Source: a virus. Taken from it: a stretch of 46,530 bases of DNA. Made by a program: the position numbers and the translations under genes. Location: the IMG/VR virus record IMGVR_UViG_3300046656_000727, positions 1 through 46,530 of that record. One strand, written 5' to 3'. The number at the start of each line of letters is the position of its first letter. Within the stretch, counting starts at the first letter, position 1. This document shows positions 6,792-41,132 of this stretch, piece after piece. The notes beneath the pieces are model-generated. The model did not search any database and had not been told where the DNA came from. It saw only the letters and a list, made by a program, of their open reading frames with translations.

Positions 6792-6796
6792 GCGGG

Positions 6797-7288: not shown

Positions 7289-7315
7289 CCGTGCTGCCCC
7301 TCCCGGCCGCAGATG

Positions 7316-7879: not shown

Positions 7880-9045
7880 CAGCGTTCCTCCCCGTCGCCC
7901 TGCGCGTCCGGATCGTCCTCCGGGCCGCCGCCCGAACCGTCGTCGCGCACCGTGCCGGGCTGCTGCGCGAGGTAGCGCGCGAGCGGGCCGGACTGCTTCT
8001 CGATCACGGGCTCGGGCAGGTAGGCGCCCGGACGCACGAGCTCGAGCGTCGCCGTCGCGCCCTCGCCCTGGCCCTCCTGGTACATCACCGCGTCGATCAG
8101 GAAGTCCCCGTCGATCAGCATCGGGGGGATGGTGAGCCGCACGAGCTGGTTCACGTTCCAGAGGTCGCCGGTCGCGTCGCCGCGGCGCTCCCACCCGCGG
8201 ACGGTCACGCTGACGCGATCACCGCGCGCCGCGCGGACGGCCACCTCGAACTCGGCGCGCGTCTGCAGCGACCCGGGGTCGCCGCCGGTCTCCGCCTGCA
8301 TCACCAGCGGGCGCGGGCGCTTCACCTCCTCGTCGTAGGCGACGCCAGACTGGCCGGACGCGAGGATGCCGAACGCCCCGTCGGTGCCGCGCCGCTGCCC
8401 GACGACGACGACCTTCGAGTATCGGTCGTGCGTACGGATCGCGAGCGAGACGTCGACCACGTTGCGCCCGTAGACGAGCTCCTCGGCCAGGCGCTCCTGG
8501 CTCGGGCGGCCGATGGCGAGACGGGTGCCGTTGTCCGAGTAGCAGATGAGCCCGGCGATGCGCAGCGCCCGGTCGATCACCTCGAAGGAGGACTCGCCCA
8601 CGTCGACGGCGAGGTTCCCGATCGGCTTCTCGACCGTCCCGCCGAGCACCAGCACCTTGAGGCCGAACGGCGCCAGGAGGTCGCGGCAGATCGTGGACGG
8701 GGTCGCGTTGATCCAGGACTTCGTCGGCTGCTTCGCCTTCTTCCCGACCGCGACGTCGGGGCAGGCGTCGTAGGCGTCCGAGGTCGCGTCCCGGCCGACG
8801 AACACTCGGCCCGACGACCCGCCGCGGATCTGGTGGTCGACCGCGTCGACGTAGCCGGCCGCGATGCGCGTGCGGCCCCGCCCGATGCGCACGAATGCGC
8901 CCGGGCGGAGGAAGGTCGGGTCCGAACCCGGGAGCTCGATGCGGAAGGTCCCGGCCGCCTGCATGAGCGCGCGCGCGACCTTGACCGACGTCCAGCCCCG
9001 GACCTCGATCCCGTCGGCGTCGATGCCCGTCGCGTTAGCCGACAC
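7879..9045 (-). CDS. Baseplate hub protein (Mu gpP/gp44-like)
   Basis: 388 aa. N-terminal beta-rich part (EVRGWTSVKVARALMQAAGTFRI) resembles the tube-like fold of gpP, gpD and gp27 hub proteins; GAFVRIGRGRTRIAAGYVDAVD follows, then a segment with NATPSTICRDLLAPFGLKV at about residues 125-145, typical of gp44. The C-terminal part has VSVTVRGWERRGDATGDLWNVNQLVRLTIP, a further barrel. It overlaps the gpN start by 11 bases and the spike gene by one base, so the three are probably translated together. The polar tail after residue 360 (DGSGGGPEDDPDAQGDGEER) is probably disordered. Confidence 0.88.
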   Translation of the reverse strand: MSANATGIDADGIEVRGWTSVKVARALMQAAGTFRIELPGSDPTFLRPGAFVRIGRGRTRIAAGYVDAVDHQIRGGSSGRVFVGRDATSDAYDACPDVAVGKKAKQPTKSWINATPSTICRDLLAPFGLKVLVLGGTVEKPIGNLAVDVGESSFEVIDRALRIAGLICYSDNGTRLAIGRPSQERLAEELVYGRNVVDVSLAIRTHDRYSKVVVVGQRRGTDGAFGILASGQSGVAYDEEVKRPRPLVMQAETGGDPGSLQTRAEFEVAVRAARGDRVSVTVRGWERRGDATGDLWNVNQLVRLTIPPMLIDGDFLIDAVMYQEGQGEGATATLELVRPGAYLPEPVIEKQSGPLARYLAQQPGTVRDDGSGGGPEDDPDAQGDGEER

Positions 9046-10231
9046 GACGCGTCACGATGCGCAGCGGCACGCCGCCGGGCAGGAAGAGGGGGTTCCGGAT
9101 GCGGTTCGCCTGGGCGATCGGGATCGCCTGGTCGACGTCGTCGAGCCATCGATAGGCGACCGCGAGGGCGTTCGTCGTCTGCTCGAGCGTGACGATCAGC
9201 GCCGGCGGGGCGTTGATGGCGTTGCCAGGGACCGTCCGCACGAGCGACGCCCGGAGGTCCAGGAGCGCCTGGAAGACGTCGTCGCGGTCGGTGGTGTCGC
9301 TGAGCGCGTTGATCTGGTCCAGGAGCAGCTGGCGCGTCGAGAGCGCCTCGTCCGTCGACTCCCAATCGGTCTGCGCGGCGGCCACGACGGCGCCGCCGAG
9401 CGCCCCGAGCCCGATCATGTCGACGACGATCTGGCGATTCTTGTCCGCCGCGGTCGCGTCGTCGGTGTCGCCCCCCTGGAGGTTAGGCGGGAGCCCGAAG
9501 AGCCCCTTGTAGGCCGAGAGCGCGTCGCGCGGCATCATCCCCGCCGCGCCGATCTGGCTGATGGCGTCGATGAAGGACGCCGCGAGGTCGGCGGGCGCGG
9601 TGATCAGCTCGGAGAAGGTCGCCGCGATCGTGCGGACCTTGTCGACGTAGATCGCGACGCGCCGCTCGATCCCGCCGATGAAGCTGACGCCCTGCATGGC
9701 GCGGAGCCCCAGGCCCGCCGTCTCCTCGACGCCGTCCAGCAGCGAGCTCGAGCCATCGACCTGCAGCTCCTCGGATCCGGACGCCGTCGCGGCCGCGTTG
9801 GCTGCCGCCGCCGCCGACTCGGCCGCGCGATTGGGGTTCTCGACGGGCTTGGGGAAGGGCGCGTCGGTCGTTTCTCGGGCCTGGAAGTCGAACCGGGCGA
9901 GGCGGCCTTCCGTCCAGGAGTCGCGCCGCCGGTAGCGGCTGACCTGCACCAGGCGCGACCCGTAGCGCGGCAGCACGAGCTCGGCGGGCCCGCGCTTTCG
10001 GAGCGCGTCCTCGAGCTCCTTCGCGCGCAGGTCGAAGTCGTCCCCGAAGACGAACCCGGTGACCGAGTGGTAGCGGGGCGTCGCGCCCTGGTCGTCCGTC
10101 GCGCCGTCGTTCTCGCCGGGCGTCGGGAAGGCGAACTCGACGATCGTGCGGCCGGAGGAGACCTCGTTGTCCTCGACGACGAACGAGATCCCGCGGAACG
10201 ACGCTGGTTGGAGACGCTCGCGCCATCCCAT
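9035..10231 (-). CDS. Tail/DNA circularisation protein, Mu gpN-like
   Basis: 398 aa. The first 120 residues match the gpN N-terminal family: GWRERLQPASFRGISFVVE, SSGRTIVEFAFP, FVFGDDFDLRAKELEDALRKRGPAELVLPRYG. In Mu, gpN is a baseplate/tail component linked to DNA circularisation or injection. The remainder is helical, with an Ala-rich region near residue 140 and no obvious catalytic motif. It lies between tape measure and hub genes, the same order as Mu. Confidence 0.85.
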   Translation of the reverse strand: MGWRERLQPASFRGISFVVEDNEVSSGRTIVEFAFPTPGENDGATDDQGATPRYHSVTGFVFGDDFDLRAKELEDALRKRGPAELVLPRYGSRLVQVSRYRRRDSWTEGRLARFDFQARETTDAPFPKPVENPNRAAESAAAAANAAATASGSEELQVDGSSSLLDGVEETAGLGLRAMQGVSFIGGIERRVAIYVDKVRTIAATFSELITAPADLAASFIDAISQIGAAGMMPRDALSAYKGLFGLPPNLQGGDTDDATAADKNRQIVVDMIGLGALGGAVVAAAQTDWESTDEALSTRQLLLDQINALSDTTDRDDVFQALLDLRASLVRTVPGNAINAPPALIVTLEQTTNALAVAYRWLDDVDQAIPIAQANRIRNPLFLPGGVPLRIVTRRVG

Positions 10232-12737: not shown

Positions 12738-14216
12738 TTACAGCCGGAACTGGATCTGGGCGGCGATGATGTAGAGCGGGTTCGCGACGTTGATCGGGAG
12801 CAGGCAGTCGATGCGCGTCGGGTCGCTCGCGTTCACCACGACGATCAGGTCGCGCTTGAACTGGTCCGGATCCTCGACCAGGCCGATCTCCTTCCAGTCG
12901 TCGAACAGGCAGAGGATCTCCGCCTTCACGATCGCCGGCGACACGATCGGCTGCGCGCTGCCGGGACGGATGCCGTCCTTCACGACCTTGTGGCGCGGGT
13001 AGCGGAGCAGCATGCGCTCCCGGAACGACCAGCGCAGGTAGGACAGCGTGTCGACCGTCGTCGTGTCGAGGTACGACGCGTCCGCGGCGCCCGACCCGCT
13101 CTTCTGGTAGGTCGTGATCGTGCGGTCGATCACCACCTGGTTCCCGATCACGACGTTCGGAGTCATGCCGCTGCGGTAGAGCTGATCGCGCTGCGCGAAC
13201 CCGTAGCGGTCGGGGACGATCGGCGGGCTGATCCCGAAGAGCGGCAGCGATCGAAGCGGCCGCGCGGGGTCGTTGCGCGAGTAGAAGCTGCGGTTCGCGC
13301 CGTAGGCCGCGGCGATCTCCCACGGAGGATCGAGCGCGCCGCGCGTCGCCATGATCGAGATGAACTTCGAGTTGTAGAGCGCGCCGAGTGCCAGCGCCGT
13401 CGCGAGGTCGGTGTTCGCCGCCATCACGGCGCTGCCCTCGAGCTGCACCGTCGGTCCCCAGCGACGCGCGAGCTCAGCGTCGATCGCGACGACGTTCGCG
13501 TTCGCCGCGTAGGGGATGATCATCAGGTCGAACTGGACTTCGCCGACCGCGGTCCAGAGCGACGTACCCGTCGTCGGGTCGGTCGTTCCGCCAGAGAGCA
13601 CGCCGGGGACGTTCGACAGCGCGACGCCCTGCGGGAGGTTTTCACCGTCGTTGTAGTTGACGCGGACGTCGATCTGCGTGCCGGAGAGCCCCTTGTTGCG
13701 CGCCGTGAAGAGCACGTGCGTCGTCGACACGACCGACGCGACGACCGGGCAGCCATCGGTTGCGTTCACCGCGGCCACGATGCTCGCCGCGATCGTCGCC
13801 GCCGTGTCGCCCGCCGCGACAGCAGCGGTGATCCTGTAGCCGGCGACGTAGAGGAAGACCGTGCCCGCGAGCACGGAGGACGCGGTGACCGTGCTGTCGA
13901 GCGTCGCCGCGACGCTGCCGCCCGCGTCGTCGAGCGCGATCGCGGTGACGTCGAACACGTGCGGGTTGGCGAAGAACGCGATCGCCATCCCGTGCAGCAT
14001 CGATCCCGCGCCGAACCACAGGCGCGCCTGGTCGACGCTCTGCAGCGCCTTGGGGACGAACTGCGCGACGGTGCCGGTGCTGAGCCGCTGGCCCACCATC
14101 AGCACCTTCCAGGGCTTGATCTGCGCGCCACCGATCGCCTTCGACGAGTCGACCTCGGTCAGCACGCTCGGGACGCGGACGTCGGCCGGGATGTCGTTGA
14201 AACCGATGGAGTCCAT
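12738..14216 (-). CDS. Contractile tail sheath protein (Mu gpL-like)
   Basis: 492 aa, close to Mu gpL. The N-terminus carries FNDIPADVRVPSVLTEVDSSKA and PWKVLMVGQRL, the gpL signature that starts the sheath handshake arm. An Ig-like variable insert lies at about residues 80-200; the C-terminus has LSYLRWSFRERMLLRYPRHKVVKDG and IIAAQIQFRL, the conserved end. A GGAGGGGG ribosome binding site precedes the ATG. This gene establishes the virion as a myovirus. Confidence 0.95.
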   Translation of the reverse strand: MDSIGFNDIPADVRVPSVLTEVDSSKAIGGAQIKPWKVLMVGQRLSTGTVAQFVPKALQSVDQARLWFGAGSMLHGMAIAFFANPHVFDVTAIALDDAGGSVAATLDSTVTASSVLAGTVFLYVAGYRITAAVAAGDTAATIAASIVAAVNATDGCPVVASVVSTTHVLFTARNKGLSGTQIDVRVNYNDGENLPQGVALSNVPGVLSGGTTDPTTGTSLWTAVGEVQFDLMIIPYAANANVVAIDAELARRWGPTVQLEGSAVMAANTDLATALALGALYNSKFISIMATRGALDPPWEIAAAYGANRSFYSRNDPARPLRSLPLFGISPPIVPDRYGFAQRDQLYRSGMTPNVVIGNQVVIDRTITTYQKSGSGAADASYLDTTTVDTLSYLRWSFRERMLLRYPRHKVVKDGIRPGSAQPIVSPAIVKAEILCLFDDWKEIGLVEDPDQFKRDLIVVVNASDPTRIDCLLPINVANPLYIIAAQIQFRL

Positions 14217-14259: not shown

Positions 14260-17200
14260 CTAGTCGGCGTCGAGGTCCACTTCATCCTCGGCCCGCAGCA
14301 CGGTCGAGCCGGCGAATCGCCACTTGCCGTCGATCAGACGCAGGTCGGATGCGTTCGGCGGGATCTCGTCCACGCTCAGGTAGGTCCGCGCGATCCATTC
14401 CTGGCGGGCCACCATCACCGTCCGGCCGCGGCCGGCTTCGCCCCATGCGTAGGACGTCCGCTCGTACCAGAAGCGCGCCGCGCCGGTCTCCGCATTGCGC
14501 GTCGCGAGCAGGATGAAGACGCTCTCCGAGAACTGGTCGAGGCGATCGTCGCCCTTCATGGTCCGCGGCTCGGCCGACAGGCACTCGACGGCGATGCGGG
14601 TGTCGAGCTGATACTCGCGCGGCGCCTCGGTGAAGATCCGGGCGTGGTCCTCGAGGGTATAGATGCCGATGGCCGGGAGCTCGGTCGATTCCCAGGCCTC
14701 CGCCCGGTTCGTGTAGACGCGCGCGCCCGCGGCCGTGGCGCCCAAGAGCAACTGCTGGATCGCGCGGCGGACGTTGTCCCCGACGCTGCTCGAGATGATC
14801 ACCGATGGCGCGTGGCTCGTGATGAACAGCGCCGCCGTCGGCGGCGAGACCGTCGTCTCCCCCTGCGGAGGAATCCGCGGCGGGAACGAGGTGATCGTGA
14901 GCGCCCCGGCCGGCGGATAGACGGTCTTCGAGACGAGCGGGCGGCTGCGGTTCGTCAGGAGCGGCGCGGAGGGCGGGAGCGCCGAGATCACCACGCGCGG
15001 CGTCTTGGGCGTCAGCGTGAGCGCCGCGGCCGGCGGGAGCACCACCTTGCCGGGCACCGGCGCGGCCGGCGTCAGGAGCAGCTGCGCGCGCGGCGGCGCC
15101 ACCACGACCTGGCCCGAGTTGCTGGCGATCGGAGCGAACGTCGTCAGCACCAGCGGCGCGGACGGCGGCCGGGCGACCTTCACGACGACCGGGCGCTGTC
15201 CCGCGAGCGCCATGAGGCGGCGGCCGGGGATGGCGATCTTCTGCACCCGCGGCGCCTGCGGGGTCAGCGTCAGCGCGCCGGCGGGCGGTCGCGTCGTGAT
15301 CGAGACGAGAGGCGTCGATCGCGTGATCGTCAGCTGCGCGGACGGGGGCTTCGCCAGCGCCGGGTCGAGCGCGAAGAACTCGTAGGCCCCGATGTCGAGC
15401 TCGAGGTCCTCGTCGCTGCGCGCGCGCTCAGTGATGTCGCGGTAGACCTCGGGCGTGTCCTCGCCCGCGTCGATCCACGGGCTCGTCGCCTGGAGGTGGA
15501 AGTCGCCGGTGCCGAAGTTCACGAAGAGCGGGTCGACGCCGAAGAGCGCGAGCGGGCGCGCCCCCGCGTCGAATCCAGCAGCCTGCCATTGGACGAATGT
15601 CTTGTGGCTGTCGTTGAAGACGAATGCGTAGTCGGTCGAGGTCGTGATCAGCGGGTCGTAATAGGCGTTCCCGACCAGCGTGCAGTACAGGTAGTCGTCC
15701 TGCGTGCTCTGCGATCCCTGACCGAGCTGAACGAGATGGCTGTCGCCGCCGCCGCCGGGCACGCTGTTCGACTTGTGGATTCCGTTCCCGATGAAGCGCA
15801 GCGAGCGCACGCCGTTCGTACAGATCGCCTGGTTCGTCGCGCCGACGATCGTATTGAAGATCGTGTCGACGCCCTGCGTGCGCTCGTCGAGGTGCGTCTG
15901 GTGGCTGTGCCCGTAATAGATCCCGATCGTGCAATCGACGATCAGGTTGTTCTTCACGACGCCGCGATTCAGGTACTGCGCGTTCAGGCCGGTGTGGCCG
16001 TTGCGGCAGTCGTTCGCCTCGAACCAGGCGTCCTGCGCCTCACTCGACCCGTCGACCGATCCGTTGCTGCCGATCGAGACGCAGCTGTTGCCGCCGCCCC
16101 GGAAGGTGTTGTGCATCAGGACGAACTTCTGGCAGCCGGAGAGCAGCAGCGCGTCGATGACGCCGTTGTTCTCGGTGTCGAAGGTGCTCCCGCGGATCTC
16201 GAGCAGGTCGCCGTGGATGTAGGCGTTCGTCGCGCGGCCCGCCGAGTTGCCGTGGCAGTTCGCGTTCAGGATCCCCATCCAGAGGTTCCGTCCGAACCCG
16301 CTCGAAATGCCCATCCCTCCGCCGCCGGGGTGCCCGCCCGCGCCGGTCGCCTCGCAGGCGTCCCAGGTGATCATCACCGTCTGCTCGTTCGCGTCGGTCC
16401 CCTCGAACGTGCCGTTCGTCACCTTGCAGCGCAGCAGGTTCGTTCCGTGCGACGTCGCGCCGAATCGATAGTCGCTCTTGTTGTCGTCGGTGTTCGCCGT
16501 GGCCCAGCGCACGTCCCAATCCTCGACGTGGACGAATCGCCCCCACACGTCGGGCTCGGACCAGTGGCCGTCGTTCCCTCGGAACAGCCACTCGCCCGTC
16601 GCAACGTCGATGATCGGCGCCGCGCCGCTGCCGTAGGTGCCGCAGATCGACGGCACCGGGAACCGGCCCGCGTCGCCGAGGAGGCCCGGCCCTGCGTAGG
16701 CGTAGTGCTGGTCACGCTTGAGCGCGATGCGGACGGGCGACGCCTTCGTCGTGATCGTGCTGCCGACCGCGAAGGCGTGCAGCACCGTCTTGAAGGCAGT
16801 CGCCTCCGTGAGCCCGTTGTCTGCGTCGTCGCCGGTCGCGGTGTCGACGAGCAGCGTCGTCCCCGACCACGCGAGGAAGGTCTTCTTGATCGCGACCTGG
16901 TGGTAGGCGCGGCTCGAGGTCCTCACCTTCAGCGTCGGGTACTTGTCGCCGGCGGCGTCGTATCGATGTGACGCGATCGGCCCGTGCGTGTTCGGGGACC
17001 CGTCGCCCCAGGTCCACTCGTAGTCGACGATCTTCTGGCCGAAGGGACAGATCGAAGCGTAGGCGTGGAATCGGACGTAGGAGTATCCCGCGAAGAGGTA
17101 GGTGTCGGCGACGAGGTTCCCGAGGCCGTCGTCCACCAGCGGCTGCGTGATCACTGCCGTCGGGCCGGCCAGGTCGAGGGCGAACTCGAGCAGGTTCTCA

Positions 17201-18546
17201 ACGCCGTCGCCGTTGCGGTCGGTGATCCCGTCCGCGGCGCTGTTCTTGTTCAGGCCGTGCGCGTCCTCCCAATCGTCGGGCATCCCGTCCTGGTCGGTGT
17301 CGAGGCGCGTCGGACGCGAGAGCATCGTTTCGTAGCCGCCGACGTCGTCCTGCGAGTCGATGATGAGCCCGAGGCCGAGCAGAATCTGCGCGAGCACGCG
17401 CTCGTCGTGCGCGTCGCGGAACGGGCGCGAGCATCCCACCGACCAGAGGATCTGCGGCACCTCGGACGTCGGCCGCGTCGGACCGTGCGGGAATGCAAAC
17501 TCGCTCGAGGCGCGGAACGTGTGCGCCCCGTGGACCTCGGGGACTTGCGCGCCGCCGCCGGTCCGCATGAAGAGCCACTGGTCGAATCCAGGGTCGGTGA
17601 CGAACGTCCCGAAGTACGGGCCCCAGTTTCCGGAGAGCCATGCGACCATGCCCGGATCGGTCGTCGTGTCGACGTCGGGGCTGACGACGATCCACGAGAA
17701 GAATGCCGGCGAGGTCGAGTTGGGGCCCGGCACCCAGATGCAGTTCACGATGTTCAGGCGCTTCAGGCCGGCCTTCTCGATTTCGCACGGCGCGCCGGCG
17801 GTCGTGCCGTCGCCGGTGCGGCTGCCCCAGTTGCCGAAGATGCAGTTTCGAATGTCGATCTGGTCGCAGTAGGCGATCTGCGGGTTGCGCGCGTTGCAGC
17901 TCCACACGACGCATTCGTAGAGCGAGATCGCGTAGGACGGGAATCCCGGGTCGCCCGATCCAAAGAGCACGCCCATCGAGTGGATGCTGCCGTCGAGCAG
18001 CGTCTTCGAATGCTGCGAGTGTCCGAGCGCCTCGTAGATCAGGCAGGCGTGGATCGTGATGTTGTAGGCGCCGAACCAAGTCGTGCAGCTCTCGTCGATC
18101 GCCCAGCTCATCGAGCAGTGGAAGATGTAGATGTCGTGCGTGTTCGGCGTGCCGGAGACGTCGCTCGGCTGGCCGAAGTTGAAGCAGTCGACCAGGTCCG
18201 CAGTCTCCGGCCAGTCGCCGACGTCGCCCGGACGGAAGCGCATGAACATGATCACGATGTCGTGCGACTGCGCGGTCGAGTAGTCGCCTCGCACCGTGAT
18301 GCCTTCGCCGGGCGCGGTCTGGCCGAGGATCGAGCAGAACGGGTGTTTGATCTTCAGCGGCGAGTGGATCGTGATCGTGCCGTCGATGTCGAAGACGATC
18401 GTGCGCGCGCCGTTGTAGTCGATGGCGAAGCGCAGGCTGCCCGCGCCGGTGTCGTTCAGGTTCGTGACGTGGATGCAGACACCGCCGACGCCACCCACGG
18501 CGTTGCGGCCGAATCCTTCGGCGGTTGGGAACGCGAGCGCCGGCAT
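14260..18546 (-). CDS. Giant pectate-lyase/PKD/beta-helix protein with C-terminal tail-terminator-like domain, 1428 aa
   Basis: Domains in order: pectate-lyase-type right-handed beta helix (about 1-360; starts LAFPTAEGFGRNAVGG and HVTNLNDTGAGSLRFAI); DTDQDGMPDDWE calcium-binding motif and helix (414-460); PKD-like domain with EWTWGDGSPN (480-560); second beta-helix domain beginning LLVDTATGDDADNGL (565-1058); nine proline-rich repeats of about 20 aa of type PPxxALxLT...P (1065-1250); and a terminal domain (1254-1410) with VRRAIQQLL, ELPAIGIYT and VDEIPPNAS. The terminal domain resembles phage tail terminators and is shared with the 1188-aa protein. The gene lies directly upstream of the sheath, where Mu carries its terminator. 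The first part likely binds or cleaves polyuronate or a similar glycan. Substrate unknown. Confidence 0.85.
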   Translation of the reverse strand: MPALAFPTAEGFGRNAVGGVGGVCIHVTNLNDTGAGSLRFAIDYNGARTIVFDIDGTITIHSPLKIKHPFCSILGQTAPGEGITVRGDYSTAQSHDIVIMFMRFRPGDVGDWPETADLVDCFNFGQPSDVSGTPNTHDIYIFHCSMSWAIDESCTTWFGAYNITIHACLIYEALGHSQHSKTLLDGSIHSMGVLFGSGDPGFPSYAISLYECVVWSCNARNPQIAYCDQIDIRNCIFGNWGSRTGDGTTAGAPCEIEKAGLKRLNIVNCIWVPGPNSTSPAFFSWIVVSPDVDTTTDPGMVAWLSGNWGPYFGTFVTDPGFDQWLFMRTGGGAQVPEVHGAHTFRASSEFAFPHGPTRPTSEVPQILWSVGCSRPFRDAHDERVLAQILLGLGLIIDSQDDVGGYETMLSRPTRLDTDQDGMPDDWEDAHGLNKNSAADGITDRNGDGVENLLEFALDLAGPTAVITQPLVDDGLGNLVADTYLFAGYSYVRFHAYASICPFGQKIVDYEWTWGDGSPNTHGPIASHRYDAAGDKYPTLKVRTSSRAYHQVAIKKTFLAWSGTTLLVDTATGDDADNGLTEATAFKTVLHAFAVGSTITTKASPVRIALKRDQHYAYAGPGLLGDAGRFPVPSICGTYGSGAAPIIDVATGEWLFRGNDGHWSEPDVWGRFVHVEDWDVRWATANTDDNKSDYRFGATSHGTNLLRCKVTNGTFEGTDANEQTVMITWDACEATGAGGHPGGGGMGISSGFGRNLWMGILNANCHGNSAGRATNAYIHGDLLEIRGSTFDTENNGVIDALLLSGCQKFVLMHNTFRGGGNSCVSIGSNGSVDGSSEAQDAWFEANDCRNGHTGLNAQYLNRGVVKNNLIVDCTIGIYYGHSHQTHLDERTQGVDTIFNTIVGATNQAICTNGVRSLRFIGNGIHKSNSVPGGGGDSHLVQLGQGSQSTQDDYLYCTLVGNAYYDPLITTSTDYAFVFNDSHKTFVQWQAAGFDAGARPLALFGVDPLFVNFGTGDFHLQATSPWIDAGEDTPEVYRDITERARSDEDLELDIGAYEFFALDPALAKPPSAQLTITRSTPLVSITTRPPAGALTLTPQAPRVQKIAIPGRRLMALAGQRPVVVKVARPPSAPLVLTTFAPIASNSGQVVVAPPRAQLLLTPAAPVPGKVVLPPAAALTLTPKTPRVVISALPPSAPLLTNRSRPLVSKTVYPPAGALTITSFPPRIPPQGETTVSPPTAALFITSHAPSVIISSSVGDNVRRAIQQLLLGATAAGARVYTNRAEAWESTELPAIGIYTLEDHARIFTEAPREYQLDTRIAVECLSAEPRTMKGDDRLDQFSESVFILLATRNAETGAARFWYERTSYAWGEAGRGRTVMVARQEWIARTYLSVDEIPPNASDLRLIDGKWRFAGSTVLRAEDEVDLDAD
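14797..15354 (-). repeat. Proline-rich PPxxALxLT repeat array inside the 1428-aa protein
   Basis: About nine degenerate copies of a roughly 20-residue unit, for example PPSAQLTITRSTP, PPAGALTLTPQAP, PPRAQLLLTPAAP, PPAAALTLTPKTP, PPAGALTITSFPP and PPTAALFITSHAP. Similar PPxGALxL units occur in other phage structural proteins. Here they form an extended linker of about 185 residues between the beta helices and the tail-terminator-like domain. Confidence 0.85.
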
Positions 18547-18568
18547 CGGCGGAGGTCTCCGATGCGGA

Positions 18569-19000
18569 TCAGGTCAGCGTGTAGAGGCCCGCCGCGGCGA
18601 TCTCGACCTTGAGCTGCTGGCCGTCCGCGCAGGAGACGTCGACGTCCGCGGAGTCGAGCTTCGAGTAGCAGAGCACGTGGCCGCCGACCTCGTAGATCAC
18701 GGCCCATCGCGCGGAGAGCGGGCCGCCCGACGCGGTCCAGATGCCGTCGGTCGAATCGACGGTGAGCGTCGTCGTGCCCGAGAGGGTGATCGTGATCGCG
18801 GTGCCGCCGGCCGTGTAGCCGTTCGCCGCCGCGATCTCGCTCGTGGAGAGGCCGGACCAGAGCGTCGTCGTGGGGCTCGGCTGCGTGCCCGTGGACGCGT
18901 GCAGGGCCATCTTGAACGTGTCCGTGCCCGGGATCAGCGTCCCGTCCTGGAGCTTCGTCCGGCCCTCGTTCGTGAACGTCCACGTGGTCGCTGCGGCCAT
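18569..19000 (-). CDS. Small tail/fibre-associated protein, 143 aa
   Basis: AAGGGGAG precedes the ATG. The protein shows the pattern of a widespread phage family placed next to fibres: a beginning like TNEGRTKLQDGTL, then DTFKMALHAS, SEIAAANGYTAGG, DGIWTASGGPLSARWAVIYE and a final beta hairpin. It is probably an all-beta fibre attachment or capping protein. It is sandwiched between the glycine-rich fibre and the pectate-lyase fusion, supporting an adsorption role. No biochemical function is assigned. Confidence 0.75.
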   Translation of the reverse strand: MAAATTWTFTNEGRTKLQDGTLIPGTDTFKMALHASTGTQPSPTTTLWSGLSTSEIAAANGYTAGGTAITITLSGTTTLTVDSTDGIWTASGGPLSARWAVIYEVGGHVLCYSKLDSADVDVSCADGQQLKVEIAAAGLYTLT

Positions 19001-19037
19001 GAGCGTCTCCCCTTGCGCGAGATCCTAGTCGATCGGA

Positions 19038-21977
19038 TCAGAAGAACGAGGTCACCGACACCAGACCGTGCGCGCCCGCGCCGCCGCCTTGCAGCGCAGC
19101 GTTCGTCCCGCCGCCGCCACCGCCGCCGCCAGGGAACCCGCCGTTGCCGGCGTGCGTCGCCGAGTCTCCGGCGCACCCGCCGCTGCCTCCGTAGGGCAGG
19201 CGCGTCGAGTCGGTGCCGTTCGCACCGGCCGCCGCCGCGGGCGCGTTCGCGCCGCCGCCGAAACCTCCGGCAGAGGCCGTGCCCGACGATCTGCCGCCCG
19301 CGCCCCCCCCGCCGCCGCGCGTCGACCACCCGTTGTTGACCGAGGTCGTGCCCGTGTCGGCGTCGGCGCCGGACTCGCCGCCGCCGCCGCCCCATTCCGC
19401 GGGCGAGCCGCCGGTCGGACCCGTCGTGCCAGAGCCGCCGCGGCCGCCGACGGCGCCGAGCGCCGCGCCCGCGGTCGCCGCCGTAAGGTCGATGCGGGTC
19501 GTGGCGACGGCGGGTGACGCCCGGCCGCGGCCCGACCCGCAGCCGCCATCGCCGCCGTCAGTGGAAATGGCACCGACCGCGGCGGTGCCGGCGATGCGGC
19601 GCGTCGAGGTGAGCGGACCGGCGCTGCCCTTGTCGAACTCGGAGAGGACACCGGCGTTGCCCGCCGTGCCATCGACGTTCGCCGTCGCGGCGCCGCCCTT
19701 GCCGGCGTGCACGGTGACCGTGACGCCGAGGTCGATCGGGTTGAACCATGCCTCGTCGTACCCACCGCCTCCGCCTCCGCCGCCGCCCGCAGCCGTCGCG
19801 GCCTGGCGCCCTGCCGATCCGGAGCCGCCGCCATCGACGATCGCGGCCAGGACGCGCGTGGCCTCGGTCGGCCGCGTCCAGGTGTCGTCGAGGTCGGCCG
19901 GACTGCCGATGAAGAGTTGCGTCTCGGACGGTCGCAGCGCGGAGGGCGCGTCGCGATTCGCCTTCACCGCCGGGATGAAGTGGATGCGCGTACAGAGGTC
20001 CGACGAGGAGTTGGCCCAGGTCACCGTCGTCGCGCCGATGCGCCCGCCCGCGCTCTGGCAGATGCCCGTCGACATGTAGAGGAATCCGCCGACGCCGTCG
20101 GTCGTGCCGTCGTCGAACTGCTCGGTGAGGCTCGTCAGGCTCGAGTTGGTCAGCGCGGACCCTTCGGCACTCGCGTTGTCGACGTTGCCCGCGAAAATGT
20201 CGCAGACGAGCGAGTTGTCGATGCCGGCGAACGAGACTGGGCTCGTGCCCGTCGTCGACGCCGTCGACTTCCAGTTGTTGTTTCCCCAATGGAACGGGTC
20301 GCCGGTCGTCGGGCAGCCGCGCACCGCGAACATGAATCCGTAGGTGTGATCGCCCGAGTCGCCGAGCGTCGGCGCCGACTCGCTGCCGCCGTCGCGCTTC
20401 CAGAAGATCGAGAGCTTCGAGCTGCCAGCCGCTCCCGCCGTTCCGAATCCGTTCTGCGGACCGATCTGCTTGTAGTTCGTCGGCGGCGGGATGTTCGATT
20501 CGTTCGCGGACTGGAGCACGAGCACGAGGATGTCGTCCGCGAGGTGCCCGGTCGGCAGCGTCGCGGTCGGCGTGCCCGTGCTCGAGAACTCCGCTGTGAC
20601 GCTCACGATCGTCGGCGCCGTCGGCGTGCGGACCGCGGCGTCACCGGCATCCATCTGCCCCTTGTTCACCGCGTCGCTCGCGGCGGCACCATCGGCGAGG
20701 CTCGTGATCTTGTTCGATCCCATCGATTGCGGGCCGGTGAAAGCGAGCGTGCCGTCCTGCTTGATGCGTGCGACTGCGAGCGTCGGGTTGGGGAAGGTCC
20801 CGGCGAGATCACCTCCTGCGGCTCCATTCGGCGCGCGTGAATCGGACAGGCGGCTGTCGTTGCCTGCACACGCCTGCGCAGCACCCGTGCCCAAGGTCCG
20901 CATCGACGGCGTGCCCGACGCGCCGTCCTTGTTGGCCGTGGCGACCTTCGCGTCAGTGACCGCGAGGGCATCGATCGTCGGGTTCGGATAGGTCCCGGTG
21001 AGGTCGCCGCCCGCAGCTCCGTTCGGAGCGCGGGAGTTCGACAGACGAAGATCATTGCCGGCGCATGCCTGCGCGGCGCCTGCGCCGAGCGTCCGCATCG
21101 ACGGCGTGCCCGACGCGCCGTCCTTGTTGGCCGTGGCGACCTTCGCGTCAGTGACCGCGAGCGCGTCAATCGTCGGGTTCGGATAGGTCCCGGTGAGGTC
21201 GCCGGCCGCAAGCCCGGTCGGAATGCGGGGGTTCGACAGGCGGCTGTCATTGCCCGCGCATGCCTGCGCGGCACCCGTGCCGAGCGTCCGCATCGACGCA
21301 GTGCCGCTCGCGCCGTCCTTGTTCGCAGCCGCGACCTTCGCGTCGGTGACCGCAAGGTCCGCAATCGACGGATTGGGGAACGTCCCCGTGAGGTCGCCGC
21401 CGGCCGCGTCGCCATCCATCACCGCCGCAGCTTCCACCGCCGCGTCGCCAGCATCGGAGTGGGAGTTCGCGTCGGCGAGCGCCGTCGTCGCGGTATTGAT
21501 GACGAAGTCCACGTTCGCGGCATCGGTCCCGACCGCCGGCGTCCCGACGTTCGTCGCCTTGTGCCCGCCGAAGGACTGGTCGCCCGTCAGCGCCGTCGTG
21601 CCGTCCTTCTTCAGCAGCGTGTTCCCGAGCGTCGTGTCGGCAGCAGTCGCGAAGCTCTGCGCGGCAGCCTGCGCGGCGGCAGCGGCCGCATCGAGCTGCC
21701 CTTTGTTCACGCCATCGCTCGACGCCGACCCATTCCCGAGGTTCGTCGCCTTGTGGCCGCCGAAGGACTGATCCGCCTCGAGCGGGACGGATCCATCCTT
21801 CTTCAGGGCGTTCGGATCGGACCCGCCGCCCGCGCCCTCGAGCGCGAGCGGGTGCCCGCCCGGCGTCACGCCGTCGTGGACGACGATGGTGTGCTTCGTC
21901 TCGTCGACGGTGACCTCGCGGTCGGCTCCGACGAAGGGCCCGGTGGGGCCGCCGCGCAGTTGGACCTGCTTCGTCAT
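19038..21977 (-). CDS. Long tail fibre with repeat shaft and glycine-rich adhesin tip, 979 aa
   Basis: The ATG at 21977 overlaps the stop of the 1188-aa gene (ATGA); upstream in-frame codons lie inside that gene. Residues 1-45 (QLRGGPTG...REVTVDETKHTIVVHDGVTPGG) are the small N-terminal attachment module seen in Mtd-like fibres. LKKDGSVPLEADQSFGGHKATNLGNG-type units follow, then about three copies of a 65-residue repeat (residues 190-395, with AAGGDLTGTYPNPTI), a beta domain (about 435-690), and a C-terminal tip (about 710-979) packed with Gly runs such as GGGGGGGGG. Glycine-rich tips forming polyglycine-II sandwiches are known in S16 gp38-type adhesins. Likely role: receptor binding. Confidence 0.85.
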   Translation of the reverse strand: MTKQVQLRGGPTGPFVGADREVTVDETKHTIVVHDGVTPGGHPLALEGAGGGSDPNALKKDGSVPLEADQSFGGHKATNLGNGSASSDGVNKGQLDAAAAAAQAAAQSFATAADTTLGNTLLKKDGTTALTGDQSFGGHKATNVGTPAVGTDAANVDFVINTATTALADANSHSDAGDAAVEAAAVMDGDAAGGDLTGTFPNPSIADLAVTDAKVAAANKDGASGTASMRTLGTGAAQACAGNDSRLSNPRIPTGLAAGDLTGTYPNPTIDALAVTDAKVATANKDGASGTPSMRTLGAGAAQACAGNDLRLSNSRAPNGAAGGDLTGTYPNPTIDALAVTDAKVATANKDGASGTPSMRTLGTGAAQACAGNDSRLSDSRAPNGAAGGDLAGTFPNPTLAVARIKQDGTLAFTGPQSMGSNKITSLADGAAASDAVNKGQMDAGDAAVRTPTAPTIVSVTAEFSSTGTPTATLPTGHLADDILVLVLQSANESNIPPPTNYKQIGPQNGFGTAGAAGSSKLSIFWKRDGGSESAPTLGDSGDHTYGFMFAVRGCPTTGDPFHWGNNNWKSTASTTGTSPVSFAGIDNSLVCDIFAGNVDNASAEGSALTNSSLTSLTEQFDDGTTDGVGGFLYMSTGICQSAGGRIGATTVTWANSSSDLCTRIHFIPAVKANRDAPSALRPSETQLFIGSPADLDDTWTRPTEATRVLAAIVDGGGSGSAGRQAATAAGGGGGGGGGYDEAWFNPIDLGVTVTVHAGKGGAATANVDGTAGNAGVLSEFDKGSAGPLTSTRRIAGTAAVGAISTDGGDGGCGSGRGRASPAVATTRIDLTAATAGAALGAVGGRGGSGTTGPTGGSPAEWGGGGGESGADADTGTTSVNNGWSTRGGGGGAGGRSSGTASAGGFGGGANAPAAAAGANGTDSTRLPYGGSGGCAGDSATHAGNGGFPGGGGGGGGTNAALQGGGAGAHGLVSVTSFF
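20800..21400 (-). repeat. 195-bp tandem repeats in fibre shaft
   Basis: About 3.3 units with a period of 195 bp (65 codons). The units near 20968-21165 and 21166-21360 align along their length, and a block of more than 50 bases starting at 20911 recurs unchanged at 21106. The unit encodes GDLTGTYPNPTIDALAVTDAKV, then NKDGASG, then GNDSRLS. Near identity at DNA level indicates recent duplication or gene conversion. Confidence 0.85.
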
Positions 21978-24900
21978 GGCTCGGTGCTCCCCCAATCCTC
22001 GGACTCGTCCGGAGGATCCACAGTACTGCCCCAATCCTCGGACTCGTCTGCGACGACCGCCGTCGATCCCCAATCCTCAGACTGGATCGGCGGCACGCCC
22101 TCGCCCTCGCCGACGATCGGGATCACGCCGACGACCTGCGACAGCGTCGACGCATCCGGCGGGATCTCGTCGATGCGCGAGTAGTAGCGATAGGTGAATC
22201 GGACGCGGGAGGCGAAGACCACGCGCGCCCCCTCGGCGCGCACGGTCGTCGTCTGGCCGGTGTACCAGCTGCGCGCCGCGGTCCCGCGCGCGCCCTCGTC
22301 GAGCATCAGCGCCGCGCGGACCTGGCGGACCATCACCTCGATCGCGTCGTCGCCGTTCTTCCGGCCCTCCTGGCCGACGATCGCCTCGATCACGAGCGAC
22401 ACTTCGCGCTCGTACTCGAAGGGCGCCTCTAGGTTGAGGCGCGACTCCTCCGCCGGCGTGTAGACGCCGATCGCAGGGAGGTCGATCTCCTCCTCCCACG
22501 GGTCGACGCGGTTCGGGAAGACGCGGTCGCCGGCGTCGGTCGCCCCCTTCAGGATCTCGACCACTGCGCCGCGGATTCCTTCGCGGGTCTGTGGCACCTC
22601 GAGCTCGGGCGTGACCACCGCCGCCGCGACGCGGACGAAGACCACTCCGAACGGCGGCACCGCGTCGACGACGACGATGCCCGTGTCGGGCTCGAGCGTC
22701 GCGCCGACGTCCGAGACTGCGCCGAGCGCGTCGACCACCTCGAGCGCGATCTGGTCCTCGAATCCCGCCGCCGCGATCGCGTCGGAAAAGTCCCCCGCGA
22801 ATCGGGCGGTGTCGCCGGTCCAGTTGTGCAGCACGATCAGCAGCGTCGAGTCGACGCGGCTCTGCCAGACCGAGTTCAGGACCTTCGGGAAGGCTGCCCG
22901 GTCGTAGAGGACGTCGTAGCTCACGTACTGGCCGGTGTAGAAGGAATCGGCATAGCCCGTGGTCGTGTCGGACGTCTCGACGTCGACGTGCGCCGGCGGC
23001 AGGAAGCGCCCATAGGGGATGTAGTCGCGGAAGGTGATGAGCCCGCGATTCACCGCGACCCACTGGTCGCGCAGCTGGCGGACGGTGTTGCTGACGGTGC
23101 CGCCGTTCTCGATGTACTGCGCGTCGTCGAAGAAGTCGAGCCCGCTGCCATTCACGTCATCGAACCAGGTCGAGAGCGCCGGCATCGTGAATCCGTAGAC
23201 CCACTCGGCGAGCTCGTAGGCCATCGTCGCGTGCAGCACGGCGTCGGTCTTCGGCGGCCCGAGCCCGACCGGGCTCACGCTCGCGAGCGCGACCGTCGAG
23301 AGCTCGTGGTTCAGCGCGCGCCCGAAGACGCGACCGGCGTGCACGACCGAATAGAGCGGGACCGCCTTGCACCCGTGGATCGTCGGGTCGACTCCGTGCA
23401 TCACCCGGAAGAGGTCGCCGGCGCCGTTCCCGTGCCAGCAGAAGTCGATCGCGTCGTGCATCGTCTCGTCGACGTCTTCTCCCGACAGGAGAAACGCGAC
23501 CTTCCCGGTGAGATCGAACTGGCGCTGGCGCGCGGCGTCGCGATGCGCCTTCACGAGCGTGTGGTTCGCCTCGACGTACCAGCGGCCGCCGCCGAGCGGG
23601 TGGCGCTGATAGCCCGGCGCGATCCCTGCCCACCCCGAGTGGTCGCGGAAGCAGAACTCCTGCGCGACGAACGTCTGCTTGATCGACGGGGTCGTCTGGA
23701 CGTCGAGGTAGCTGTGGCAGTTGTGGCCCTTCTCGAATGGCGCCGCGGTCGCGTTCTCGACGAAGCGCGCGAGCAGCGTGGACGAATGCGCCATCGCGTC
23801 CGGGCAGTACGCATCGAGGGCGAATGGCACCTCGAACTGCTGGAACTCGGATCCCGCAGACCACACGGCGACCTGGTCGCCCGCCTGCGGGATCACTGCG
23901 GCGCCCGTCGCGTCCGCGAAGTTCCCGGTGGTCACGAGCTGCCCGTTCCCGAGCGACTGGACGCGCGTCGTGGCGAGCCGCGCCGCTCCGGAGATCGGGA
24001 TCAGGGTCGCGACCATCGTCGACACGAATCCCGAATCCGCGCCCGGGTTGCCGGTGATCGAGAGCGTTCTCGTCAGCGCATTCCACCCGGTGACGGGATA
24101 GATGCGCTCGTGGTAGTAGGCGCCGCCGCCCTGCTCGACGAGGCGATCCGATCCGCCGCCCTCGAGCGCCCCGCGGCGCGACTGCCGGAAGGAATCCACG
24201 ACGAGGTTCGTGGTCCACCAGCGCAGCTCGTCGCCCGCCCAGCGATGGATGTCCCAGGGGTTCGGTCCAATGATCCCGGGCTGCCAGACGCCGCCGAAGC
24301 TGTTCTGCTGGAACATCAGGTCGAGCGTCGATCGAAGATCCCCGATCTCGAGCTCGAACGGCAGGTAGATGTTCTGCTGCAAGACCTCGAACACGCTGAA
24401 CGACGGCGGCGGGTCGCCGGGTCGCACGGCATTGCGCGCATTCATCTGCAGCGCCGCGACCGGCGCCGAGCTGCCGTGGTAGGCCGCCATCACCGCGTCG
24501 AGGAAGAGCCACGGGCCGCGCTCGAAGCTCGACAGGTCGATGCGGTCGATCCGCTTCGGGATCAGGATCGACGGCGCGACGAGCTGCTGGCGGCGCCGGT
24601 AGTGCTCGCCGAAGCTCGCCCAGCCGTGGTAGCCGACCTGCATCGGGCGCAGACAGAAGTCCGTGATGCCGAGCGCGCGCCCGCCGTTCCCGACGACGAT
24701 CGAGTCCTCGCACGGGACGCTCGCCTGCCAGAGCAGGTTCGCGCCGTCGCTCTGGAAGAGGACGGAGAATGGCGTCCGGTCCCATCGCTCCGTCCAGACC
24801 ATCCATCCCTCGCGCGCCGCGCGCGAGTAGTACCCCCACATGCCGATCGGCGCGCCGCGCCCGGTCGGATAGGTCCAGGCGTTCCAGATGAAGTTTCCGA

Positions 24901-25540
24901 ACGTCGCCGACGGCCGCCCGCTGCCGGGGTTGTATCGGAGTGTCTCGACGGGGTCCTGCGCGAGGATGCCCGTGACGTTCGGGAGCACGGCGAAGTCGGA
25001 TCCGCGGTCGCGCGGAGCGATGCGCAGCGGCAGGACGCGGAAGGAGTCGATCGCGTAGCGCGCCGGCGTGCCGATCCACGCGAACGCGATCGCGCAGCGC
25101 AGCCAGTCCTCGCCCGCGCGCAGCTCGAGCGTCATCGTGACGTCGAAGCTGTCGACGCCGTCGATCGTATTCCCCGCCCAGAGGATCGTGATCGCGGACG
25201 CCGTCGAACTCTCGACCGAGAGGTTGTTCGGGGACGGCATGACGACGCTCGTCTGCAGCGGGTTGGCCTGCGTGCAGTCGAAGACCGTTGCGGACCAGAG
25301 ATCGGTGTCTGCCTGCGCCCACGTGCTGACGGGCAGCCCCGACTCGAGGCGCTCCATCGAGACCAGGCGGAACCCCGCGACGGTGTCGCGCTTGAACGTG
25401 AAGCGCGCGGACGCGTTCTCGAGGACATAGGTCGTCGCCGGCGCGGCGATCACGAATCGGTGCGGGACGCCCCACCCGACGCGGCCCGTCGGCGGCCGCA
25501 TCGCCCACGACTTCGCCGAGCGATTGCGCGTCACGAACAT
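21974..25540 (-). CDS. Giant glycoside-hydrolase-like protein with C-terminal tail-terminator-like domain, 1188 aa
   Basis: The N-terminal part (about 20-330) is beta-rich with the layout of the mutarotase-like sandwich that precedes TIM barrels in large glycosidases; the middle (about 340-850) has barrel-like alternation with aromatic and acidic patches (LDAYCPDAMAH, FCFRDHSGWAGIAPGYQ, DAIDFCWHGNGAGDLFR); a beta sandwich follows (about 890-980, LLIVLHNWTGD). This resembles DUF6259-type glycoside hydrolases, judged by pattern. Residues 987-1140 form a domain with IRGAVVEILKG, DLPAIGVYT and IDEIPPDAS, related to the end of the 1428-aa protein and to tail terminators of the lambda gpU type. The last 35 residues contain SEDWGST three times. 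Start at 25540 chosen by fit to the preceding stop; Met14 is an alternative. Confidence 0.8.
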   Translation of the reverse strand: MFVTRNRSAKSWAMRPPTGRVGWGVPHRFVIAAPATTYVLENASARFTFKRDTVAGFRLVSMERLESGLPVSTWAQADTDLWSATVFDCTQANPLQTSVVMPSPNNLSVESSTASAITILWAGNTIDGVDSFDVTMTLELRAGEDWLRCAIAFAWIGTPARYAIDSFRVLPLRIAPRDRGSDFAVLPNVTGILAQDPVETLRYNPGSGRPSATFGNFIWNAWTYPTGRGAPIGMWGYYSRAAREGWMVWTERWDRTPFSVLFQSDGANLLWQASVPCEDSIVVGNGGRALGITDFCLRPMQVGYHGWASFGEHYRRRQQLVAPSILIPKRIDRIDLSSFERGPWLFLDAVMAAYHGSSAPVAALQMNARNAVRPGDPPPSFSVFEVLQQNIYLPFELEIGDLRSTLDLMFQQNSFGGVWQPGIIGPNPWDIHRWAGDELRWWTTNLVVDSFRQSRRGALEGGGSDRLVEQGGGAYYHERIYPVTGWNALTRTLSITGNPGADSGFVSTMVATLIPISGAARLATTRVQSLGNGQLVTTGNFADATGAAVIPQAGDQVAVWSAGSEFQQFEVPFALDAYCPDAMAHSSTLLARFVENATAAPFEKGHNCHSYLDVQTTPSIKQTFVAQEFCFRDHSGWAGIAPGYQRHPLGGGRWYVEANHTLVKAHRDAARQRQFDLTGKVAFLLSGEDVDETMHDAIDFCWHGNGAGDLFRVMHGVDPTIHGCKAVPLYSVVHAGRVFGRALNHELSTVALASVSPVGLGPPKTDAVLHATMAYELAEWVYGFTMPALSTWFDDVNGSGLDFFDDAQYIENGGTVSNTVRQLRDQWVAVNRGLITFRDYIPYGRFLPPAHVDVETSDTTTGYADSFYTGQYVSYDVLYDRAAFPKVLNSVWQSRVDSTLLIVLHNWTGDTARFAGDFSDAIAAAGFEDQIALEVVDALGAVSDVGATLEPDTGIVVVDAVPPFGVVFVRVAAAVVTPELEVPQTREGIRGAVVEILKGATDAGDRVFPNRVDPWEEEIDLPAIGVYTPAEESRLNLEAPFEYEREVSLVIEAIVGQEGRKNGDDAIEVMVRQVRAALMLDEGARGTAARSWYTGQTTTVRAEGARVVFASRVRFTYRYYSRIDEIPPDASTLSQVVGVIPIVGEGEGVPPIQSEDWGSTAVVADESEDWGSTVDPPDESEDWGSTEP
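21980..22081 (-). repeat. Triple SEDWGST repeat at the C-terminus of the 1188-aa protein
   Basis: The motif SEDWGST occurs three times, separated by short acidic/proline linkers (AVVADE and VDPPDE). At DNA level the sequence ccccaatcctcggactcgtc and close variants recur. The repeat sits after the terminator-like domain and ends two residues before the stop. Short acidic-aromatic repeats like this may be docking peptides; nothing else identifies their role. Confidence 0.9.
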
Positions 25541-25553
25541 GCGGGAGCGACCC

Positions 25554-26306
25554 TCACGCGGCGAGCGGGATCTCGATCGGGAAGTCGCGGCGGAACGCCT
25601 TGCCCTTGTAGTTGAACGTCACCCGCGCGTTGATCGCGCGCGCGCCCGTCAGCCCGAGCATCGGCTTGGTGAAGTAGACGTTCCCGTCCGCGCCCTCGTG
25701 CAGGTCGGCGCCGGAGATCTGGACGATGTTCGGGATGGTGAGATCGCTCAGCTGGATCGTGAGCGCGGTGACGACCGTCGTGCGCCCGCCCGACGCGCCG
25801 ACGGCGGTGACCGGGAAGTCGAGGAAGTCCTTCGACCACCAGCGATGGATCGACAGGCAGCCCGTGATCTGCGGAGCGTCCGAGGGGCCGACGCTCGGCA
25901 GGATCGCCAGCTGCACGTCGAGCTCGCTGCGGACCTGGTAGGTCATCAGCAGCGGATTGAACTCGGCGCCGACCGGCTGGATCTTCAGCATGCAGTCGCC
26001 CTCTTCGGAGAGGTCGACGTCGTGCCCGCCCGAAACGCCCTCGCCCCAGAGCACCATCCGGTACATGCCGTCGCCACCGAGCGTGAGCGTCAGGTTCGGC
26101 GGGGACGCGCTCTTCACGTGGATGATCCCCGAGGGAAGGATCACCGTGGCGATCACGTGCGCGGGGTCGAGGTTCGTGCCGGTGACGCCGCCGGTGTAGG
26201 GGACGCCAGTGACGGGATCGGTTAGCTGGAAGACGACGAACTCGAAGCCGCGGTAGTGGCGCTTGATGCCGGCGTTGAAGACGCCGCCCGGAGAGAGCGT
26301 GCTCAT
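25554..26306 (-). CDS. Hypothetical structural protein, 250 aa, beta-rich
   Basis: No family recognised. Sequence is beta-rich: FEFVVFQLTDPVTGVPYTGG, HVIATVILPSGIIHVKSA, YRMVLWGEG, then a C-terminal half with TIPNIVQISGADL and ARVTFNYKGKAFRRDFPIEIPL. No membrane segments, no cysteine cluster. It sits between the connector candidate and the 1188-aa protein, spaced 13 bases from each. A role in the neck or in anchoring the large appendages is inferred from position. Two Ig-like or jelly-roll domains would fit the length. Confidence 0.6.
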   Translation of the reverse strand: MSTLSPGGVFNAGIKRHYRGFEFVVFQLTDPVTGVPYTGGVTGTNLDPAHVIATVILPSGIIHVKSASPPNLTLTLGGDGMYRMVLWGEGVSGGHDVDLSEEGDCMLKIQPVGAEFNPLLMTYQVRSELDVQLAILPSVGPSDAPQITGCLSIHRWWSKDFLDFPVTAVGASGGRTTVVTALTIQLSDLTIPNIVQISGADLHEGADGNVYFTKPMLGLTGARAINARVTFNYKGKAFRRDFPIEIPLAA

Positions 26307-26318
26307 CGAGACCTCCGC

Positions 26319-26654
26319 CTACTCGTCCCAGGCGAGGTCGCACATCGCCATGCCCTCGCCGTCCTTCTCGACCTTCACGACGACGAAGAACTGGTGCACG
26401 GGGACCGACGCCTGGACCGGGATCTCGATCTTGTCCTCGCGCGCGAGGTCGCCGCCCGGCATGTCCGCCAGCACGACGTCGAGGCGGGGCTTGTCGATCA
26501 TCACCGGCACCTGCGTGTCGGCGTCGATGCCCTGGTGCTTCGCCTGGAAGATGCCACGAAGGCCGGCGGTGGCTGACCCGCCGGCCCTCGTGACGACGAT
26601 CTGCAGTCCGTAGACCTCGACGTTCGTTCGCTGCACGACGTCGAAGTAGCCCAT
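26319..26654 (-). CDS. Putative head-tail connector protein, 111 aa
   Basis: A small beta-rich protein: VEVYGLQIVVTRAGGS, then RGIFQAKHQGIDADTQVPV, DVVLADMPGGDLAREDKIEIPVQ and FFVVVKVEKDGEGM. Placement after the decoration protein, and a pattern like lambda gpFII-type joining proteins (strand-rich, with a ...D.I.I......F.V.......G pattern), suggest a head completion or head-tail joining role. Homology is not certain. Confidence 0.6.
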   Translation of the reverse strand: MGYFDVVQRTNVEVYGLQIVVTRAGGSATAGLRGIFQAKHQGIDADTQVPVMIDKPRLDVVLADMPGGDLAREDKIEIPVQASVPVHQFFVVVKVEKDGEGMAMCDLAWDE

Positions 26655-41130: not shown

Positions 41131-41132
41131 CG

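Follow-up and report, generated by a model that had tools for sequence, protein, structure and literature searches.

What occupies the interval between the head closure and tail sheath genes of a phage when that interval exceeds 11 kb, and does its content place adsorption proteins at the neck of the particle? The question is posed by IMG/VR record IMGVR_UViG_3300046656_000727, whose 46,530 bases were analyzed in full and are referred to here as the window. The first and last 127 bases of the record are identical; this exact end repeat makes it most likely that the record, with 46,403 bases of unique sequence, is a complete genome. Four co-directional genes, P0004, P0003, P0002, and P0001, form a block between the head closure and sheath sides (positions 14260-25540; 11,281 unique bases, or 24.3%). 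A sequence-only reading of this DNA had described a four-gene row between head completion genes and the sheath, put it at about a quarter of the genome, and proposed that it replaces the terminator region. The order, coordinates, and proportion hold, but rather than replacing the terminator region, the block holds two terminator copies, each of them fused. We regard it as fairly probable that these duplicated terminators, each N-terminally fused to a giant module, form neck-mounted, polysaccharide-active appendages.

21974-25540, - strand: P0004, 1188 amino acids; large N-terminal module and C-terminal terminator (phrog_6774, phrog_4204)
22166-22597, - strand: terminator domain of P0004, residues 982-1125 (leave-out profile, AlphaFold2, VIA-align)
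21977-22081, - strand: C-terminal end of P0004; three SEDWGST repeats where sheath-arm sequence would be usual
19038-21977, - strand: P0003, a fiber of 979 amino acids; Mtd-like N-terminus, DUF5907 repeats, YadA-type stalk, glycine-rich tip
18569-19000, - strand: P0002, 143 amino acids; phrog_644 (E = 1.4e-18)
14260-18546, - strand: P0001, 1428 amino acids; pectate lyase, PKD, beta-helix, repeat linker, C-terminal terminator
17248-18534, - strand: pectate-lyase-like domain of P0001, residues 5-433 (phrog_27797, PDB 9buj)
14797-15372, - strand: linker of P0001, approximately residues 1059-1250; PPxAxLxLTxxxP repeats of about 20 residues
14263-14796, - strand: terminator domain of P0001, residues 1251-1428, including the apparent C-terminal arm region (leave-out profile, AlphaFold2, VIA-align)

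The terminator assignment draws on both sequence and predicted structure. Among PHROGs, the C-terminus of P0004 matched phrog_6774 (E = 9.9e-11) and phrog_4204 (E = 3.8e-9), and that of P0001 matched terminator-type families more weakly (E = 5e-4 and 0.03). When the whole genome was searched in six frames with phrog_4204 (E <= 10), only P0004 and P0001 matched. With a leave-out profile of 74 rows, from which the window copies had been removed, P0004 was retrieved at E = 3e-30 and P0001 at E = 1.3e-20, and no third terminator was found among the 454 frames of the genome at E <= 10; these rows came from an iterated search whose first seed alignment included both window domains. For each domain, the AlphaFold2 model had predicted local distance difference test (pLDDT) scores mostly above 90. 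When compared with solved structures using VIA-align, both models matched T5 p142 best (P0004: Z 15.8, 134 residues, 2.2 Å; P0001: Z 15.7, 132 residues, 2.1 Å), with lambda gpU, Mu gp37, and further terminators and caps next in the ranking. Such proteins dominate the top 50 entries listed per model, among which the aligned chain starts at residue -1 to 13 of the solved structure; those listed solved terminators therefore have no domain ahead of the fold. By sequence profile and by the fold of the predicted models, both domains are of the gpU/Mu gp37 type, although the full proteins, at 1188 and 1428 amino acids, fall outside the standalone size of roughly 130-200 residues. Their size counts against an ordinary terminator and leaves the predicted presence of a terminator domain untouched. 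P0001 aligns through the end of the iterated profile (model position 179) and, by alignment, appears to retain the region matching the sheath-binding C-terminus of Mu gp37, whereas the alignment of P0004 stops at model position 151 of 179. Given that an earlier profile containing P0004's own row aligned P0004 to its end, this arm difference is one of sequence likeness only.

The N-terminal parts were assigned with unequal success. The pectate-lyase-like domain of P0001 matched phrog_27797 (E = 1.1e-38) and PDB 9buj (E = 7e-24), which places it in this group by sequence profile; the label of lyase, predicted by the sequence-only reading, is thus well supported. The match to PelZ (NF041900; E = 5e-32, 111 of 840 bits) lay under the curated equivalog cut-off, and no signal peptide was seen by eye at the N-terminus. 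Downstream lie a PKD domain (approximately residues 490-546; E = 5e-6 in a fragment search), a beta-helix-like part terminating in a choice-of-anchor Q match, and the linker, in which the repeat motif occurs eight times at residues 1067-1235 and which shows weak similarity to mycobacterial prophages (E 0.002-0.09). For the N-terminal part of P0004, of about 975 residues, the only Pfam match was DUF6259, obtained on a fragment at E = 0.1 and, with 12.1 of 28.7 bits, below the gathering threshold. This part may be a glycoside hydrolase, and the accompanying label of glycosidase is best taken as a weakly backed guess that is perhaps correct. A PDB search with P0004 returned matches at chance level only, 50,697 phage and 72,556 plasmid records held no match to the protein, and its N-terminal part matched nothing in 392 Planctomycetota genomes, a search that had no positive control.

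Both long frames are open throughout, and third-codon G+C is 0.86-0.97 in every 120-codon block of P0001 and P0004 (TerL, head, and sheath genes, 0.95-0.96). Given this flat profile, the two genes look coding across their junctions. The spacing from the upstream neighbor P0005 to the sheath gene (in order, 13 bp, a 4-bp overlap, 37, 22, and 43 bp) is that of one operon. The fusion recurs in L196, a 4.4-kb IMG/VR contig with a sheath 70% identical to that of the window. There, a beta-helix-like end, a proline-rich repeat linker, and a terminator lie in one frame immediately before the sheath gene, with 35%, 43%, and 54% identity to P0001, respectively. Synonymous distance exceeded non-synonymous distance in all three parts (1.5 versus 0.79 in the helix end, 0.86 versus 0.66 over the 194 aligned codons of the linker, and 0.69 versus 0.44 in the terminator), by a modest margin in the linker. 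A tree of 71 terminators pairs P0001 with L196 as its sister (support 100/95) and attaches P0004 to this pair with 89/78 support and in 86% of 200 bootstrap trees. The tree is consistent with a terminator duplication in this lineage before L196 diverged.

Where would such fusions sit in the particle? Structural studies describe the terminator as a hexamer that connects head and tail; where the tail is contractile, the C-terminal arm of the terminator contributes a strand to the top sheath ring (PMC11915804, PMC10457771, PMC10491603). The terminator of RcGTA, a gene transfer agent, contacts the stopper on the head side through its N-terminal helix (PMC7296036); by this geometry, an N-terminal module would exit the ring on the head side. 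Since P0001 and P0004 hold the only detected terminators, at least one large N-terminal module is expected on the neck unless it is cleaved. The sequence-only reading had proposed two adsorption sites, one at the baseplate and one at the neck. That the two fusion proteins create a second site at the neck, for adsorption or digestion, is likely and a fairly direct consequence of there being only two detected terminator domains and of the known hexamer and arm position of solved terminators. P0003 and P0002, placed by gene order, might share that site. The observation that prompted the two-site interpretation is confirmed, and the interpretation itself is partly supported.

We propose that duplication of the terminator gene in this lineage gave two copies, each of which became joined N-terminally to a very large module. 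P0001, which is encoded beside the sheath gene and appears to keep the arm region, would make up the hexamer that caps tube and sheath, and its N-terminal enzymes, at most six per particle, would extend from the neck on flexible tethers. By rule of thumb, a 531-residue tape measure corresponds to a tail of close to 80 nm and a 190-residue extended linker reaches at most about 60 nm, which could let a tethered enzyme act well away from the neck. The P0001 enzymes might degrade or hold capsule or slime polysaccharide, with the baseplate fiber finding the final receptor. P0004, whose arm region appears to be missing, would join a mixed ring or form a second ring above that of P0001. The weakest step concerns P0003 and P0002, which are encoded between both fusions and would probably constitute a receptor-binding cassette at the same site. 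A broader formulation, possible but doubtful, treats the terminator as a docking chassis: two paralogues bearing different large, probably carbohydrate-active modules would form mixed or stacked neck rings of reversed polarity and, together with the fiber, a second adsorption site. If so, a terminator duplication beside a fiber gene in another locus (L083, below) would show the same trend arising independently.

Several points weigh against neck-mounted appendages. The support for grouping P0004 with P0001 and L196 lies under the usual 95/80 mark. L196 is the sole further fused relative, and its contig ends inside the fusion. The N-terminal part of P0004 has no convincing family, and an AlphaFold2 model of the full protein was useless outside the terminator domain. 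Virion fibers usually anchor by their N-terminus, whereas these fusions would anchor by their C-terminus. Finally, proteolysis or internal initiation, at a GTG codon at P0004 residue 982, could part enzyme from terminator.

On that last point, the fusions could be polyproteins from which an internal start or a protease frees a small, normal terminator, leaving the enzymes soluble or attached elsewhere. In the alignment, the P0004 GTG coincides exactly with the start-codon position of standalone relatives, and the terminator fold of both models begins at the N-terminus of solved terminators (residues -1 to 13 in all rows listed). By eye, however, no convincing ribosome-binding site precedes this GTG, and P0001 has no start codon with a ribosome-binding site near the matching place. 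With the linker conserved over its aligned codons in L196 as well, we consider such release unlikely. It is also quite improbable that the terminator-like domains have retired from capping and now serve as ring-forming docking domains for baseplate receptor-binding proteins. The apparent absence of an arm region from P0004 would fit such a role, as would the finding of linker-like repeats and phrog_644 among the tail-tip genes of mycobacterial prophages; yet with no further terminator detected, one copy or both should still be in use as the tail cap, and P0001 appears to keep the arm region and lies beside the sheath gene.

A further alternative, compatible with the fusions as we favor them, puts only the two enzymes at the neck and takes P0003 and P0002 to be ordinary tail-tip proteins whose genes were inserted by chance. 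That phrog_644 relatives come after minor tail protein genes, and that the position of P0003 is known from gene order, would agree with this arrangement. We nevertheless think it somewhat unlikely, as a baseplate fiber with its own N-terminal module is already present at 4472-5689, and the duplicated terminator of L083 directly precedes a DUF5907 fiber-like gene. The resemblance of the P0001 N-terminal part to bacterial carbohydrate-active enzymes might also raise the suspicion that unrelated bacterial enzyme genes were joined to a phage terminator during assembly. The same fusion in the independent contig L196 makes a chimeric assembly unlikely, and together with the flat coding signature, the tight one-operon spacing, and the terminal repeat of the record, it leaves this explanation with almost no weight.

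A precedent with which neck-mounted terminator fusions can be compared is a contractile phage that bears adsorption-type proteins on its neck. In Vibrio phage XM1, six gp40 trimers form collar spikes that touch the terminator, and host sensing has been proposed for them (PMC10457771). Each gp40 is a separate trimer with an N-terminal Ig-like neck-binding domain and a C-terminal tailspike (PMC10457771), whereas in the window the module is covalent with the terminator, with the enzyme N-terminal and the anchor C-terminal, the opposite order. Neck spikes are thus already known; what appears new, within the literature searched, is covalent fusion to duplicated terminators. Among the papers listed by searches of open-licence PubMed Central text, we recognized no report of a receptor-binding or enzymatic module joined to a terminator, and none was met in the available excerpts of PMC9025141, PMC10276861, PMC7296036, and PMC12796354. 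The terminators of Mu (gp37; PMC11915804), PBb002, and ST64B share the homologous domain and the gene neighborhood before the sheath, but they are single-copy, standalone proteins of about 180 amino acids; the gene after them is small and, in Mu and ST64B, encodes DUF2635. L196 shares the one-frame arrangement ahead of the sheath; it differs in being cut within the fusion, with the enzyme, fiber, and second-terminator regions outside the contig. Terminators have been taken as small, single-copy housekeeping caps, and P0001 and P0004 depart from that. If terminators carry enzymes of about 100 kDa, the neck would be a site where host recognition evolves, and annotation that seeks receptor-binding proteins only after the baseplate genes would overlook it. 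The neck-appendage function proposed for XM1 would also gain a system with predicted, assayable enzymes.

The sequence-only reading had suggested a synteny survey around sheath genes. Standalone terminators of about 180-200 amino acids occupy the corresponding place in Bordetella phage PBb002, Mu, ST64B, and loci L007-L011, L013, and L016-L018. Among 80 IMG/VR sheath loci, a terminator was detected in 56, its end lying 91-863 bp before the sheath match; none was detected in the other 24, partly since contigs stop near the sheath. Across 134 terminator loci (terminator at E <= 1e-4, not deduplicated, window copies excluded), the open frame extended more than 300 residues ahead of the domain in five. 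The linker-terminator fusion was found again in L196, the only one of these loci that proved truly fused. A 1188-amino-acid frame in L237 was rejected on account of a head gene in another frame (E = 4e-168) and a third-position G+C of 0.48, and L218, L100, and L109 were rejected for a start codon at the terminator domain. A terminator match was present in 11 of 398 Pseudomonadota genomes and in 4 of 392 Planctomycetota genomes, the longest open frame in both sets being 331 amino acids. Single-sequence scans of IMG/VR gave no close relatives of P0001 or P0004, and none of the 39 stretches from a two-terminator alignment search was confirmed. L276, found via a linker-terminator alignment, had neither terminator nor sheath in the stretch examined. 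Frames of more than 600 amino acids within 4 kb after the head gene occurred at several loci (listed for 44 of 80 head-gene loci). In L272, a possibly non-coding open frame of 1049 amino acids (6059-9205) ends 0.8 kb before the sheath match, and no terminator was detected.

At positions 9913-11082 of L083 (record G794), two terminator domains, 41% identical to each other, lie in tandem in a protein of 389 amino acids, which could give a threefold neck ring. A DUF5907 fiber-like gene of 791 amino acids follows. The locus also has two similar-looking genes of 282 and 274 amino acids, then DUF2635-like (by eye) and sheath genes. It thus resembles the window in its duplicated terminator, its fiber-like gene, and a gap of about 5 kb between terminator and sheath, but its terminators are fused to each other rather than to enzymes. 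Its small neighbor of 128 amino acids was rejected as a relative of P0002, as it matches phrog_240 and not phrog_644.

For P0003, the frame listing gives a TTG start at 22073; the ATG at 21977, which overlaps the P0004 stop and yields the 979-residue protein, is likelier. The first 45 residues are 58-60% identical to two phage records, one of which, Pseudomonas phage AH02 (58%), has the gene annotated as major tropism determinant. Relatives of P0002 occur in 208 phage records, all from Mycobacterium or Mycolicibacterium, and come after minor tail protein genes in both neighborhoods examined. In four M. abscessus prophages (GD91-2, GD17-2, GD21-2, and GD15-1), a linker-like gene is numbered directly before the phrog_644 relative, an adjacency read from gene numbers with one neighborhood examined; linker and phrog_644 may belong together. 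In prophiGD91-2 (L278), where the minor tail genes end, gene 102 weakly resembles the linker and gene 103, directly after it, is the phrog_644 relative. The ordinary fiber that the sequence-only reading had placed at 4.5-5.7 kb is present, and 62 residues of its N-terminus are 40% identical to a fiber-like gene of L018 (E = 8e-7). This fiber and the neighbors of the block are as follows.

26319-26654, - strand: head closure Hc1, upstream border (phrog_82, E = 3.4e-9; Pfam Phage_attach, E = 1.2e-9)
25554-26306, - strand: P0005, 250 amino acids, between Hc1 and P0004; family-less
12738-14216, - strand: tail sheath, downstream border (phrog_165, E = 9e-147)
4472-5689, - strand: conventional tail fiber, 405 amino acids, among the baseplate genes (phrog_4492, E = 4.1e-34)

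P0005 had no PHROG, supported Pfam, or NCBIfam match, and a tblastn search of the 50,697 phage records was empty at E <= 0.1. The genome has a G+C content of about 69%, and all structural genes lie on the - strand. The earlier description of a Mu-like phage applies to the tail, which comprises sheath, tube, a short tape measure of 531 amino acids, and baseplate hub and wedge genes. It does not extend to the packaging and portal set (phrog_15 and phrog_21 by PHROG), which we take to be lambda-type; in the head gene, protease and capsid are fused. After the gp48-like gene, a protein of 455 amino acids (1645-3009, - strand) is enzyme-like by eye and has no Pfam or PHROG match. Between the baseplate fiber and the gp48-like gene sit a small protein with a C-terminal hydrophobic stretch (3588-3914, - strand) and a protein that appears lipoprotein-like by eye (3932-4456, - strand), possibly lysis genes in an unusual position. 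On the + strand, positions 41084-43096 encode a protein of 670 amino acids in which ParB-like and DNA methyltransferase parts are joined (phrog_498, E = 1.7e-105).

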